DNA of 55,322 nucleotides from positions 1 through 55,322 of the forward strand of contig DAHXMV010000006.1 in the NCBI GenBank assembly GCA_027371535.1, written 5' to 3'. The stretch is from Candidatus Amesbacteria bacterium. GTDB lineage: Bacteria > Patescibacteriota > Microgenomatia > CAZETR01 > Amesbacteraceae. Position 1 is the first letter of the stretch. Every line of letters begins with the position of its first letter. Below are positions 16,462 to 23,430 of this stretch, one piece after another. The position numbers and the translations under genes were made by a program. Below the pieces are notes generated by a model. That model was not told where the DNA came from and ran no database searches. It saw only the letters and a list, made by a program, of their open reading frames with translations.

Positions 16462-17133
16462 ATGGCTGTGAAAAGAATCAGGACCAAAAAAACGGTTTTA
16501 CCAGAACCAATGGAAGTTACGGAAACACCACCGGAAGTTCAAGAAGCTCCCAAAAAGAAAGTCAGCGGGTGGGTGATTGGAGTTATCCTGGCAGTAATAC
16601 TGGTAGGGTTTTTCTGGTACAAAACAAATTCCTGGCCGATTGTGGCGATGGTAGGCATGAGACCGATTACAAGATTTGAAGTAGATCAGGCTTTATTCAA
16701 GCAGGGAGGTAAGACACAGGTTGAAGATATAATTACGCAGACTTTAATTGAAAACGAACTGAAGAAAAATAATATAAACATCAGCAGCGCGGAAGTTGAA
16801 AGTAAAATAAATGATATAAAAGCCCAGCTGGGAAAAACTACCAAGATTGAGGATGTGCTGGCCCAGAGAGGCATGACCATGGATGACTTTAAAAAACAAC
16901 TGGCTTTGCAGATGGGCATAGAACAATTGTTGAAGAATAAAGTGACAGTAACCGACCAGGAAATTGCAGACTATATTACGCAGAATAAACAGTATATGAG
17001 CTCGGCTACCCCAGAAGCCCAGAAAGCCGAAGCGACACAGGCAGTGCAAATGAACAAGCTGCAGACTGAAGTAAATAACTGGATAACCCAGTTAAGGAAT
17101 GCCAGCAAAATCTGGAGAGCTCCGGGGGTTTAA
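16462..17133 (+). CDS. Membrane-anchored SurA-N-like chaperone
   Basis: 223 residues from the ATG at 16462, with TATAAC just upstream; a TTG-started longer frame from 16426 is less likely. One membrane anchor at about 35-53, then a helical domain matching the N-terminal chaperone region of SurA/PrsA proteins (ITRFEVDQALF, then DVLAQRGMTMDDFKKQLALQ, then VTDQEIADYI). The parvulin isomerase domain is absent, so it should hold exported proteins without isomerising them. Ends with a 4-bp convergent overlap. Confidence 0.8.
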   Translation: MAVKRIRTKKTVLPEPMEVTETPPEVQEAPKKKVSGWVIGVILAVILVGFFWYKTNSWPIVAMVGMRPITRFEVDQALFKQGGKTQVEDIITQTLIENELKKNNINISSAEVESKINDIKAQLGKTTKIEDVLAQRGMTMDDFKKQLALQMGIEQLLKNKVTVTDQEIADYITQNKQYMSSATPEAQKAEATQAVQMNKLQTEVNNWITQLRNASKIWRAPGV

Positions 17134-19298
17134 GACAATTTCAGAGAGTAACGTTCGCGGGAAGAGCGGAGAATTTTGTCAAGATTCTGATTAGATGATT
17201 TGTGCGGAGGCAGAGTGGTAGCCAGAAACGGCGGCGAAACCGCCCCGTCGATGGTCATTTTGACGGCAATCTGGTGTTTTTGCAGGGAAACCAGATTGGC
17301 GGCGGTAAACGCCCCGCCAAATTCGGCTTCCATGACCCGGGCATCTTCGGAGCCCAGGACAAAACAGACGGTGGTGCCGGCGTTGCCGAAAATGGCCTTT
17401 TGGATGGGTTCGGTAATCTGGGCGATATACTGGTTGGCCAGAATCAGGCCGAGCTTAAATTTGCGGGCCTCGGAAAGAATTTTAATAAAGCTTTCGGTGG
17501 CGAAATTCTGAAACTCATCGACGTAGAGGAAAAATTCACGCCGGGCATCTTTTGGCTGGTCCACCCGGTTCATGGCGGCCAGCTGCAGCTTGGTGATAAA
17601 CATGGCACCCAGAAGAGCCGAATTATCCTCCCCCAATTTACCCTGGGACAGGTTGGCAATTAAGATTTTGCCCTGATTTAGAATCTGATCCAGGTCGATG
17701 GATGAAGCCGAATGGGAAATCAGATTATGAATCAGGGGGGAATTGACGAACTGGCCGACTTTATTCAGGATACTGGAAATCTGCTCCGCGCGGGTCTTTT
17801 CGTCCAATTTATCGTATTCGTTTTTCCAGAAGGAAATCAGCTGATCGTTTTTAATCCGGGAATAAATAGTCTTTCTGAATGCGGAATCGGTGAGCATTTT
17901 AATGACATCGGGCAGGGTGGAGCCGGGAATCTGGGTCAGCGTCAATAAAGTATTGCGCAAAATGTATTCCAGACGGGGGCCCCAGGAATGTCCGTAGAGT
18001 TTATGGAAAATGGCCACGATGCCGGAGGTAACCAGCTCCGACTGGTCGGGATTGGCCACTTCCAGAATATTTAAGGAAATGGGGTGCTCCTTGTCCGCCG
18101 GATTGAAATAAACCACATCGTTGATGCGGTGGGAAGGCACATAATTTAACAAGGCTTCGGCGCTGTCGCCATGGGGATCGATGAAGGCTACTCCCCTGCC
18201 CTTTTTAAAATCGTCGACGGCCATATTTTCCAGCAAGGTGGATTTGCCGGTGCCGGACTTACCCAGGATATACATATGTCGTAAGCGGTCTTCGGTTTTA
18301 ATGCCGAAATTGAGCTGCTGGTTGTGAAAGGTGGTATTGGCAAAGAAGTTGATATCACGGTTGGGATCGGGGGCGTTTTCGGCAGGTTTTGTGTAAACCG
18401 GCAGGTTTTCCGGGGCTTCGGAGAAGGAAGCGGAGACGGACCAGGCAACGTTGGGGATTTTGGTGTAGATGCCGGGAAGATGCCAAAGGGATGATAATTC
18501 CATGACATTTAAGACCGTAGGAGGCACCAGGAGGCTTTTGAAGGGTTTACGGCCCATAATACAACCAAGGAGAGTACTTTTATCCCAGGGAAGGATTTGA
18601 GCAGCCTGGAGGCTGTTGCCGTCGGGGCGGTTTAAAACGGAAATAGCTCCCCGCAAGTCGTAAAGCAGGCGCTGACTGGTGGCGGCAAAGTGAATGCTGA
18701 CACCGACTAACGGGTAGGACAATTTGTCTTCGACGATCTTTTTTTGGGGAATGGGCGGGTCTTTGACCAGATGCCCGGCTTCGTCGTAATGCTGGGTGGG
18801 CTGGATATAGGTATAGGCTTTTCTGACAAGGGATCTGGCAGCCGGGGTCAGCACAAACTGGACCAGGATCCGGTCATCAGGACCGGCTTTACTGAGGACG
18901 CCCATCAAGGGCAGCATGGGGTCGACTTCCTTGTAATCGGCATAATCCCTCAACGGATAAAAAGCGGCAAAGGACTGGCGGATGAGCATGGTATACGGCC
19001 TGAAATTCCAGGTGGCCAGATAATCTTTGATTTCGGACATGACTACGTCGGGATAGGTGGCCAGAAGCTGGGACTGGACAAAGGTGGTCAGGTGGTCGGG
19101 AAAGACGATGGCAAAGACGACCTGGCCGTTGACGATACTCACCTCCAGAGAAATATAAACAGGCTCAATGTGGGATAAACGGCCCAAAAAGTCATCGGCT
19201 TTGGTGATTTTGGCCAGGGAGGCGAGAACCTGGGACATCTGTTCGGGGGTGTTGTCCGATTCACGGGGAACCCTCAATGAAAGGACTTTAAGAGCCAT
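17130..19298 (-). CDS. HerA/VirD4-type hexameric ATPase
   Basis: 722 residues. A ~330-residue N-terminal region precedes a P-loop ATPase with Walker A GKSGTGKST near residue 345, IDPHGD shortly after, and Walker B FLYVDEFQNF near 589, followed by a sensor-like segment LILANQYIAQI. This order matches TraG/VirD4/HerA-type DNA pumps. No other conjugation gene is nearby, so a role in DNA transfer, uptake or segregation is open. High GC and codon use typical of the housekeeping genes. Confidence 0.85.
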   Translation of the reverse strand: MALKVLSLRVPRESDNTPEQMSQVLASLAKITKADDFLGRLSHIEPVYISLEVSIVNGQVVFAIVFPDHLTTFVQSQLLATYPDVVMSEIKDYLATWNFRPYTMLIRQSFAAFYPLRDYADYKEVDPMLPLMGVLSKAGPDDRILVQFVLTPAARSLVRKAYTYIQPTQHYDEAGHLVKDPPIPQKKIVEDKLSYPLVGVSIHFAATSQRLLYDLRGAISVLNRPDGNSLQAAQILPWDKSTLLGCIMGRKPFKSLLVPPTVLNVMELSSLWHLPGIYTKIPNVAWSVSASFSEAPENLPVYTKPAENAPDPNRDINFFANTTFHNQQLNFGIKTEDRLRHMYILGKSGTGKSTLLENMAVDDFKKGRGVAFIDPHGDSAEALLNYVPSHRINDVVYFNPADKEHPISLNILEVANPDQSELVTSGIVAIFHKLYGHSWGPRLEYILRNTLLTLTQIPGSTLPDVIKMLTDSAFRKTIYSRIKNDQLISFWKNEYDKLDEKTRAEQISSILNKVGQFVNSPLIHNLISHSASSIDLDQILNQGKILIANLSQGKLGEDNSALLGAMFITKLQLAAMNRVDQPKDARREFFLYVDEFQNFATESFIKILSEARKFKLGLILANQYIAQITEPIQKAIFGNAGTTVCFVLGSEDARVMEAEFGGAFTAANLVSLQKHQIAVKMTIDGAVSPPFLATTLPPHKSSNQNLDKILRSSRERYSLKLS

Positions 19299-19862: not shown

Positions 19863-20648
19863 ATGAAGACTAAGAAGTTTGTTTTGTTGATGGCTTTGGT
19901 TATAGCCCTTTCGAGCGCATTTGCCCTCCCAGCGGCTATTAATCATTTGCCAGGTATTGTGCAAACCCCTATCGCCAACGTTATAAACGTTGTCGCAAAC
20001 GCCTGTTCTATGAACTGTACATCTTGGGATGGTACAGCTTCCTGGGGCGCGGGCGATTATCGCATGATGTTGGATGGTAACTCAGTTTGGAGTGGGACGT
20101 TGACAGACAATGAAAAGAAAGAAGGAACGTTCACTTTGAACTGTGGTTGGCACGAATGGTCATGGGAAATGAAGGTAAAGGATAAAGAAGGAAATGAGAA
20201 ATGGGAGAGTAAGGCCGGTGGAAAATTTGAATGCAAGTGCGCGTCAGCTACGCCGACAAACACAATGCCTCCTACCGAGACTTTACCCCCTACCTCAACC
20301 TCTACTACTAAACCTTCCATTACCCCGTCCTTAACAAGCTCACCAACAATCACTTTAACCTTTACTCCAACCTTAACGGTTACTCCATCAATCACCGCTA
20401 CACCTACCAACACAAGCACTGCTACACCAACACTACCTGGACCGACCCCTGTATCTACCACACCTGCGCCCACCACTGTGGTTACTACTGTTGTAGTTCC
20501 TACTACCCCCGTGGTTACCACTCCGGCGCCGACGACTCCTCCACATCCCCGAATCACCCCAAACCCTGGCTCCAGTAATGGTGCAAGTGACCAACCAAAG
20601 AATATATTGGATTGGCTCAGGTTCTTTTGGAACTTGATTTTCGGATAA
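19863..20648 (+). CDS. Secreted Cys-containing protein with Thr/Pro stalk
   Basis: 261 residues: signal peptide (1-22), a small extracellular domain (about 45-127) with Cys at 48, 52, 94, 124 and 126 and an Ig-like or carbohydrate-binding-like strand pattern (GTFTLNCGWHEWSWEM), a Thr/Pro-rich mucin-like stalk (128-232), and an aromatic amphipathic C-terminus (WLRFFWNLIFG) that could seat in a membrane. Translation uses a Shine-Dalgarno (GGAG 10 nt upstream), unlike its leaderless neighbours. It is embedded between heavily folded leader and trailer RNA. Function unknown; adhesin or cargo of an RNA element are both possible. Confidence 0.8.
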   Translation: MKTKKFVLLMALVIALSSAFALPAAINHLPGIVQTPIANVINVVANACSMNCTSWDGTASWGAGDYRMMLDGNSVWSGTLTDNEKKEGTFTLNCGWHEWSWEMKVKDKEGNEKWESKAGGKFECKCASATPTNTMPPTETLPPTSTSTTKPSITPSLTSSPTITLTFTPTLTVTPSITATPTNTSTATPTLPGPTPVSTTPAPTTVVTTVVVPTTPVVTTPAPTTPPHPRITPNPGSSNGASDQPKNILDWLRFFWNLIFG

Positions 20649-20849: not shown

Positions 20850-20997
20850 AGGGAGATGTGTGTTTTGTTTTGTGTGTTTTGTTGATTTTGGGATTTTTCT
20901 GGGGAATTAGCTTTTTTTGCAATTATTGATTTTTGATCATTTTTTTAAACCCCCCCAGCCCAATCAGCAACAACCCGCATTACAGCACCATCTCCCT
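20850..20997 (+). ncRNA. Nested rod-like RNA helix
   Basis: Nested complementary blocks: AGGGAGATG (20850-20858) with CATCTCCCT (20989-20997), GTG (20860-20862) with CAC (20986-20988), GTTG (20881) with CAAC (20968), TTGGG (20888) with CCCAA (20959), CTGGGG (20899) with CCCCAG (20953). The left arm is G/T-rich and the right arm C/A-rich, as expected for a long rod. It abuts the hammerhead. Confidence 0.55.
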
Positions 20998-21077
20998 AAG
21001 TTTTTTACAGATGAAGTCTGTACTGATGAGGCGGCCCCACTACGCTGAAGCTACGCGGGGTAAACCGAAAAAACTTA
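20997..21077 (+). ncRNA. Candidate type III hammerhead ribozyme
   Basis: All core elements are present in order. Stem III: TAAGTTTT (20997-21004) with AAAACTTA (21070-21077), 8 bp. Cleavage triplet UUU ending at 21005. Stem I: TACAGA/TCTGTA (21006-21022) with loop TGAAG. Core CTGATGA (21023-21029). Stem II: GG/CC, an internal loop, then CCCC/GGGG (21030-21066). GAAA at 21067-21070. Predicted cleavage is between 21005 and 21006. UUU obeys the NUH rule but is a weak triplet, so activity is less certain than structure. Confidence 0.72.
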
Positions 21078-21083
21078 ACAATA

Positions 21084-21146
21084 AAGTTAACTTATACAAA
21101 ATATAAATATTTTGTATATCCATGAGTTTTAAAGCAGAACTCATGG
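21084..21146 (+). repeat. Palindromes between ribozyme and CHAP gene
   Basis: AAGTTAACTT (21084-21093) is a 10-bp palindrome. TATACAAAATAT and its complement form a 12-bp stem at 21093-21118 with a 2-nt centre. CCATGAGTT (21120-21128) and AACTCATGG (21138-21146) form a 9-bp stem. They may terminate the upstream transcript or bind a regulator at the next promoter. Confidence 0.6.
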
Positions 21147-21154
21147 CTATAGGT

Positions 21155-21168: not shown

Positions 21169-23430
21169 ATGAATAATGTTGAACACGGACAATACCAATA
21201 TTTAAAGCGGCAGGAAAAACTGACCGCGGTTCCGCAGGTCGAGGACAAATACTCTGACGAGGCTAAAAAGGCCTGGATGAGAAAGGCGGCTGCACAACAT
21301 AAACTGGAGATGTTTTCAGATGTAAATGTGGACCCGGACAAAAAGACTGTAAGTGCCGAAGAGATGATGAACGCCACCCTGGAAGGTTTAAAAGAAGCTG
21401 AAATTAAGAGACAACATTCTAATACCGATAAAGGGAAAGCCTATTGGAAGAATGTAGAAAGAGGCCTGAAAATCAAAAAGACATGGCTGGAAAAAAGCAT
21501 GCCCAAGAACCAATTTACTAATGAAGAACTAAGGCAACCTTTAATTGTAGAAACCGAAAAACAAACAGAAACCTTATTACTGCCTAAAAGTATTCCGGAA
21601 CCGATAGCTGAAAATAAACCTGTTTTGACCAGATTCCAGATGTTAGTTAAGGGAATCAGGCAAAAAGGCGACGAAATATTGCAAAAATTAAGAGTAGAAC
21701 CGGATATTGTTGACAGCGATTCTGTATTAGAAAGCTGGAGAGCAAGTGAAATTTCAGAAAAGAAACAAAAGAAAAACATTTTAAAGGAAATTGCTTATGG
21801 TACTGGTATTGTCACTACGATTGCAACTGCGGCATTAGGTATTTATGCGTGGTTAAACAGAAAATCCGCAGTATCTCCAGTTGAGATTGCCAAAGCTTTA
21901 AATACTCCTATACCATTGGAAACAACCATAAATACTCCTGTCCCGGCAAATACGATTACGGTGACCCCTTCTGTGATACCATCTGCCACGGAGACCGTAA
22001 CGCCAAAGCCATCTGTGACTCCCGAGAAGCCCACTAATTCTTATGAAATATCAGTTGACGGTAAAACTATTGATCTGACCAAATCACTAGCTATAGTTTT
22101 TTCCCAGAATCTGTTAAATGCTGCAAGTGTAAAATCTCAGATTCCTATATTTACCCAACCTTTTGTTATCAATACAGAAGCCGATTATTTGAAAGCGCCT
22201 AATACAATGGGGGTGAATGAAAAATCAATAAATACAAACCACTGGAAAGAATATCCGTGGCAGGCTTCCGTGATGAAATCCTTTTACAACAGTGATTTTG
22301 TAATGAGTCTGGAGAGCGGGCATTTAAATCAAACAGTTCCAAAAACAATGAATTCCGATTGGCAGAAAGCCTTTAATGAAACTTTTCCCAAGGCCAGTTT
22401 GGATAAACCGCAAGCATTTGATATGCCGGCCCAGCCTTTGGTTGATCTGGCCAATACACTACCAAACCATATTGAAAGAATATCAGTAAATGGAAAATCG
22501 AGCGATATGACTGTATATGAATTACCAAACCAGCAATTTAAAATACAAGTGGACGGAACTCCGTGGACTATAAAAAGTATGAGAAAAGTAAGTCTGGATG
22601 TGTGGAATCAAACCTGCGGGAATACCGATAAAGGCTGGTATTGTGCGTTGGATCAGGTAAATATTCCGCAACCTGCAGAGACCACAATCACTATTCCCAC
22701 ATGCATGGATTTTAAAAACGGTGAATACGCAAACCGATTAATAGTTGAAATAACTCCGGATAAATCAATAAGTCTCGACAAGTTTGCACCTGAAGTTATA
22801 AATGATCCTATTTTTAATAAAGGAGTGCGTCAGGCAGTGTTAATTAACGGCTACCAATTTACCGGCAATAAAAGTGGCTTTGTAAATTATTTGAAAAGTT
22901 CAAATCTGTTTGATGAATGGGATAAGCTGGTAATAGATAATTTAATTACTAATAATACAAATAATTTTCCTGATGGGAAAATGACCGGTATTCAGTGTGT
23001 AGGTTGGGCCGGATTGAGAACCGGACCAGAAAGCCCGATGTATTTTGGCGGAGATATAAAGGCAGACGGTACTAAAATAAAAGGACCCGGAGAGGCTGTT
23101 CCGGATAGCGTTAAGAAAGCTGCAAATCAAAATTATTTGTACACGGAGACTGAAGGTAACAGAAAATGGATAACGGGAAATGTTGATCTGCACATGGTGA
23201 AAAAGGGAGATGTAATTGTGGAATGGAGCGATGACCCCAATTTTTCAGCCGGTCATATTATCTATGTTGAAAATATTATTTCTGATAGCAAAGGCAATGT
23301 GATGGTAATTTTATCCGAAGCTAATAATAAAAATAATCCCGGTCAGGTGTCTTATTCCGTAATTAGTGGAATTTCGTTAGAAAGTTCCCTGAATAATAAG
23401 AGTTTGGCTTTGGTGACTAATCGTGGATAA
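21169..23430 (+). CDS. Membrane-anchored protein with C-terminal CHAP-like domain
   Basis: 753 residues. About 205 cytoplasmic, charged helical residues; one membrane segment near 210-230; a Thr/Pro linker (about 245-290); a long extracytoplasmic middle region; and a C-terminal domain with Cys near 609 (IQCVGWAG) and His near 694 (AGHIIYVEN), the Cys-His pair and spacing of CHAP/NlpC-type peptidoglycan amidases. It would act on or bind the cell wall. The amidase call is an inference from those two motifs. Confidence 0.7.
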   Translation: MNNVEHGQYQYLKRQEKLTAVPQVEDKYSDEAKKAWMRKAAAQHKLEMFSDVNVDPDKKTVSAEEMMNATLEGLKEAEIKRQHSNTDKGKAYWKNVERGLKIKKTWLEKSMPKNQFTNEELRQPLIVETEKQTETLLLPKSIPEPIAENKPVLTRFQMLVKGIRQKGDEILQKLRVEPDIVDSDSVLESWRASEISEKKQKKNILKEIAYGTGIVTTIATAALGIYAWLNRKSAVSPVEIAKALNTPIPLETTINTPVPANTITVTPSVIPSATETVTPKPSVTPEKPTNSYEISVDGKTIDLTKSLAIVFSQNLLNAASVKSQIPIFTQPFVINTEADYLKAPNTMGVNEKSINTNHWKEYPWQASVMKSFYNSDFVMSLESGHLNQTVPKTMNSDWQKAFNETFPKASLDKPQAFDMPAQPLVDLANTLPNHIERISVNGKSSDMTVYELPNQQFKIQVDGTPWTIKSMRKVSLDVWNQTCGNTDKGWYCALDQVNIPQPAETTITIPTCMDFKNGEYANRLIVEITPDKSISLDKFAPEVINDPIFNKGVRQAVLINGYQFTGNKSGFVNYLKSSNLFDEWDKLVIDNLITNNTNNFPDGKMTGIQCVGWAGLRTGPESPMYFGGDIKADGTKIKGPGEAVPDSVKKAANQNYLYTETEGNRKWITGNVDLHMVKKGDVIVEWSDDPNFSAGHIIYVENIISDSKGNVMVILSEANNKNNPGQVSYSVISGISLESSLNNKSLALVTNRG

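Follow-up and report, generated by a model that had tools for sequence, protein, structure and literature searches.

Many bacterial hammerhead ribozymes have been reported near integrase genes and prophages (PMC3088659), and what hammerheads do in bacteria has been described as an open question (PMC6155905). The closest described systems to the element analyzed here are the bacterial type III hammerheads (Perreault et al. 2011, PMC3088659), represented in Rfam by RF00008 (Hammerhead_3). The element lies on the forward strand at positions 20997-21077 of the window, the whole 55,322-nt stretch of Candidatus Amesbacteria DNA that was analyzed, and it shares with these ribozymes the core, the three helices, an open stem III and the NUH triplet; the G10.1-C11.1 and A15.1-U16.1 pairs of type III hammerheads are present as well. 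It differs in that its score against RF00008 is far below the cut-off, in that stem II has 2 bp followed by a dispersed hairpin of REP-like type, and in that it follows a chromosomal gene, unlike the integrase- and prophage-linked bacterial examples. The Clec2 hammerhead of rodents (PMC6155905) is likewise type III and likewise lies in the 3'UTR of an mRNA. Its helix I is very large, whereas in the window stem II is the unusual arm; one element is mammalian and the other bacterial, and common descent is without support.

For the hairpin in stem II, the closest described elements are the REP sequences associated with RAYT (TnpA-REP) proteins (PMC3733652, PMC8266576), which resemble it in being dispersed hairpins of 20-40 bp with variable complementary arms. 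REP elements bear a GTAG or CGTC tag (PMC3733652), whereas the repeat in this class has a YAAR flank and neither GTAG nor CGTC. Because of this flank, and because the window's own genome (G000) has no match to PF01797, we call the repeat REP-like rather than REP. In a search of open-licence papers, none mentioned hammerheads together with CPR or Patescibacteria and, judged by title or abstract, none was relevant to palindromic repeats in Microgenomates.

The hammerhead motif is complete, and every feature that the preliminary description assigned to it was found at the position given. Stem III comprises 8 bp, with 20997-21004 pairing with 21070-21077; the computed fold gives 7 of these, to which U20997-A21077 is added. 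Stem I is a 6-bp hairpin at 21006-21022 (21006-21011 with 21017-21022) whose loop, UGAAG, is similar to the loops UGGAG, UGUAA and UGAAA of hammerheads elsewhere in the class. Both conserved core segments are intact, CUGAUGA at 21023-21029 and GAAA at 21067-21070, the latter providing G12, A13 and A14 (21067-21069) and A15.1 (21070). Stem II (21030-21066) folds into a basal GG/CC helix (21030-21031 with 21065-21066), an internal loop CG/AAA and an outer helix GCCCC/GGGGU (21034-21038 with 21057-21061) of four GC pairs and one GU pair. The two basal pairs had been described before; the four outer pairs reported with them become five with the additional G-U pair, and in an alignment to R1, the class-derived covariance model described below, helices of 8, 6 and 2+5 bp close on the core, with entry through the open stem III. 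The same alignment places the predicted cut after H17 (U21005), between 21005 and 21006, where it had been predicted from the motif. The NUH requirement at this site is satisfied by UUU at 21003-21005. UUU is a weak cleavage triplet, which the preliminary description had counted as permitted and weak; it is no oddity at this locus, since UUU was also read by hand in the same-locus hammerheads of two relatives (G006 and G013), and other class hammerheads have UUA or UUC.

The AAA of the stem II internal loop could replace the usual A-rich tetraloop in the contact with the stem I loop. By nearest-neighbour energies, which leave out the tertiary contact on which hammerheads rely, the hammerhead fold reaches -14.4 kcal/mol compared to -19.3 kcal/mol for the minimum free energy (MFE) structure, which pairs two core A's with a U run. 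What most threatens the predicted activity is a stem II base of two pairs together with this competing fold.

RF00008 matches the element at 20.7 bits (E-value of 0.039), its sole match in the 1.02-Mb genome and well under the gathering cut-off of 48.5 bits. One interpretation of so low a score is that a hammerhead-like arrangement was assembled by chance around a dispersed repeat, most other copies of which have no hammerhead flanks. Two tests independent of the RF00008 score argue against this. A strict descriptor (stem III of 7 or more bp, stem I of 5 or more bp, CTGATGA, stem II of 2 or more bp, GAAA) matched once in the window and not at all in 6,293 composition-matched first-order Markov windows (696 Mb, both strands). 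The second test was R1, a model trained on 23 hammerheads from this class and excluding the window; its training members were found via RF00008 and it inherits that selection, while the window contributed nothing to it. R1 scored the element at 39.5 bits, with an E-value of 3.2e-9 that is rough owing to a short calibration, and the next best hit in the window at 12.8 bits. Given these two results, we conclude from sequence comparison that the hammerhead is not a chance arrangement. The stretch very probably codes for a self-cleaving RNA of known type. Relatives carrying hammerheads at the same locus, one of them with a nearly identical leader, leave the chance interpretation very improbable. 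Several other candidates were rejected: RUF4 (RF01582) scored 27.8 bits against a gathering cut-off of 55, with an AT-rich alignment and broken pairs, and matches to MIR395, SAM_alpha, PreQ1 and snoRNAs were all far under threshold. The possibility of a ribozyme family repeated within the genome was also discarded, a single copy having been found.

Across 374 genomes of the class, a sample of MAGs with one genome per species, RF00008 had matches at E-values of 0.5 or less in 54, many between 1e-6 and 1e-10, compared to 1 of 14 named control genomes at the same threshold. In the alignment of 23 class hammerheads, 15 of 17 pairs show covariation with two-sided changes, and 92% of paired cells are complementary, compared to 62% in shuffled and 34-45% in slid alignments. 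Judged in this way, the class members are real hammerheads that Rfam leaves unannotated; a gathering-level Rfam scan of eight of their loci reported tRNAs only. The preliminary description had counted the lack of a covariance-model score above threshold as a refutation. At 20.7 bits the element would fall under this rule, which is too strict because none of the 374 genomes passes it (the best reaches 47.6 bits), textbook covarying hammerheads included; the cut-off is a threshold and not a biological feature.

Some genomes and viral contigs contain several hammerheads. In the Amesbacteria relative G002, three lie within 2.4 kb (L096 and L097), with a fourth near a contig end, and their flanks are alike, with CCCAGCAGTTCCCA upstream; in G253 (L039), two are about 740 nt apart. 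These multiple copies suggest duplication or mobility. On IMG/VR viral contigs (L134, L181, L163, L147, L166, L139, L164), strong type III hammerheads also occur in arrays of 2-5 or more, on the same strand at a spacing of about 0.5-3 kb and with R1 scores of up to 71 bits. Most of these lie shortly before a start codon, many after a short hairpin such as GTGTCTTCAAAGACAC, and some of the contigs carry a gene that by eye is GroEL-like.

The window's hammerhead belongs to a locus shared by four genomes of its family, which is Candidatus Amesbacteria within the Microgenomates, in agreement with the earlier assignment to the CPR. The locus is marked by a TraG/TrwB-like ATPase gene on the reverse strand (17130-19298; Pfam TrwB_AAD_bind 3.3e-7, DUF87 2.5e-7), which is 69-77% identical in loci L099 and L100. 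Divergent from it on the forward strand is a gene for an exported-looking Thr/Pro-rich protein of 261 aa (19863-20648), with an ORF at the same position in L099, L100 and L098. R1 identified clear hammerheads in four relatives among the family's 14 genomes (G004, G006, G013 and G002), and in the window and the first three of these the order is the same: ATPase gene, divergent exported-looking gene, hammerhead. The hammerhead lies 317, 263 and 497 nt past the stop of the exported gene in G004, G006 and G013, respectively. In the window, the leader directly upstream of the ribozyme (20979-20995, forward strand; ATTACAGCACCAYCTCC) is identical at 16 of 17 bases in G006, by direct comparison with L100. 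The exported proteins of the locus are alike in layout, and BLASTP detected no homology among them. Immediately past the exported gene's stop, the window contains a perfect 12-bp inverted repeat with a 32-nt loop (20665-20676/20709-20720); a comparable long-loop hairpin was seen by eye after the stop in G004 (L099).

What follows the hammerhead varies among these loci and bears on which transcript it might act. The preliminary description placed the element 349 nt after a stop codon and 92 nt before the next start, and both distances hold (the stop codon ends at 20648 and the next ATG is at 21169); its term "intergenic" is better replaced by the 3'UTR of the upstream gene. The forward-strand gene that begins at this ATG (21169-23430) encodes 753 aa, and neither it nor the exported gene has a Pfam match. 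An alternative is that the ribozyme belongs to the 5' leader of this downstream gene, so that the cut would trim the leader and control expression. The co-directional start only 92 nt away would fit, as would a homologue of the 753-aa gene downstream of the G006 hammerhead (homologous in the C-terminal part) and some class hammerheads that touch a start codon (L030, L047). Against this, the same locus in G004 and G013 has a terminator-like hairpin directly after the hammerhead and nothing coding directly after it, the downstream gene is often convergent across the class, and two AT-rich palindromes separate the ribozyme from the 753-aa gene. We consider the leader interpretation improbable. 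The two palindromes, at 21093-21118 (TATACAAAATAT/ATATTTTGTATA) and 21115-21151 (TATATCCATGAGTT/AACTCATGGCTATA), make 21093-21151 a possible operator, terminator or promoter region; a scan for consensus promoters and terminators gave numbers at chance level.

Placement after genes is common across the class. By crude, mechanical ORF calls, 27 of the 30 class hammerheads with context have a co-directional ORF upstream (binomial p of 8e-6 against an expectation of 0.5 and 0.016 against 0.7), mostly 60-130 nt past the stop, and the downstream ORF is co-directional in 17 of 29 and opposite in 12 of 29. A 5'UTR role cannot be general because those 12 downstream genes point the other way. We regard the post-gene placement as a strong lead and not a census. 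Many of the upstream proteins have, by eye, signal or lipoprotein-like starts, and none of the 10 tested matched Pfam. In family f28 (L030, L047, L027, L038, L042), the stem III 3' strand lies at or near the start of an ORF that by eye is glycosyltransferase-like, and most of these start-touching hammerheads also follow a co-directional gene.

The bases that form the outer stem II (21035-21062, forward strand) make up one copy of a REP-like hairpin repeat dispersed in the CPR, a new finding that was absent from the preliminary description. It is identical at 28 of 28 positions to a copy in another class genome (G003:C7:9035-9062), which has no hammerhead flanks. In a pattern scan, the repeat family, with its fixed core CTWCGCTRAAGCTWCG, was found in 70 of 233 class genomes (G089, G065 and G150, and loci L244 and L245, are examples), and a reversed control pattern was found in none. 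Among 104 distinct copies the arms covary, with five arm positions paired in 81-94% of copies, compared to shuffle means of 52, 41, 63, 85 and 72%, and column counts show a YAAR tail conserved on one side. Y1 transposases are commoner in repeat-bearing genomes (63 of 70 compared to 98 of 163; p of 2.5e-6). The same core occupies stem II of two other intact hammerheads, L097 from the same family with the repeat in the same orientation and L046 from another family with the opposite orientation. Long stem II arms without the repeat core occur in L039, L042 and L054. Three other pattern matches (L240-L242) are not hammerheads. We rejected the idea that all 81 nt move as one unit, since elsewhere the stem II repeat occurs without hammerhead flanks. 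Either the hairpin was inserted three times into a stem II loop, or the repeat and the tips of stem II attract each other because both are hairpins.

The repeat also raises the possibility that the hammerhead has decayed from an active ancestor and that the stem II repeat, the two-pair base and UUU have left the ribozyme slow or dead. The low RF00008 score, the short basal stem II, the competing MFE fold and the absence of the element from some TraG-linked relatives are all in keeping with decay. Decay would not long spare the core bases and stems I and III, which are respectively intact and perfect, and two intact hammerheads, L046 and L097, likewise carry the repeat in stem II. We judge decay to be unlikely, though less so than the leader interpretation.

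We consider it likely that the element is a genuine type III hammerhead at the transcript end of the exported Thr/Pro-rich gene, and a self-cleaving 3'UTR element is the best reading. It is preferred because of the 39.5-bit R1 score, the covariation, the relatives with a hammerhead at this locus, the terminator-like hairpins, the post-gene placement of 27 of 30 class members and the absence of chance matches. Arguing against it are the sub-cut-off Rfam score, the weak UUU triplet, the two basal pairs of stem II and the less stable hammerhead fold, as well as the lack of a hammerhead at the locus in two TraG-linked family genomes (L104, L106) and in G009, and upstream proteins that are not detectably homologous. 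Under the preferred reading, once RNA polymerase had passed 21077, the RNA would fold and cut itself co-transcriptionally between 21005 and 21006. The upstream mRNA would carry a 2',3'-cyclic phosphate at the end of a short 3' tail, and the ribozyme, the downstream sequence and any terminator hairpin would become a separate 5'-OH fragment. Cleavage would thus set the 3' end of the upstream mRNA, and hence its lifetime, and would uncouple it from the downstream gene. Of a normal hammerhead stem II, the ribozyme has only the two basal pairs; the rest is a REP-like hairpin that would have landed or been retained there.

The failure of every class genome to reach the Rfam cut-off suggests that CPR hammerheads are under-counted. 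We tentatively speculate that in the Microgenomates unannotated type III hammerheads act as 3'-end processors of a set of mRNAs, many of which apparently encode exported proteins, and that mobile hairpins of the REP-like kind can be exchanged as modules of stem II, such that a working ribozyme has incorporated a mobile repeat. Class hammerheads recur 3' of genes, and one such locus is retained in four genera, which makes a part in 3'-end formation directly testable. The stem II repeat would be an example of how a ribozyme arm can absorb mobile hairpins.
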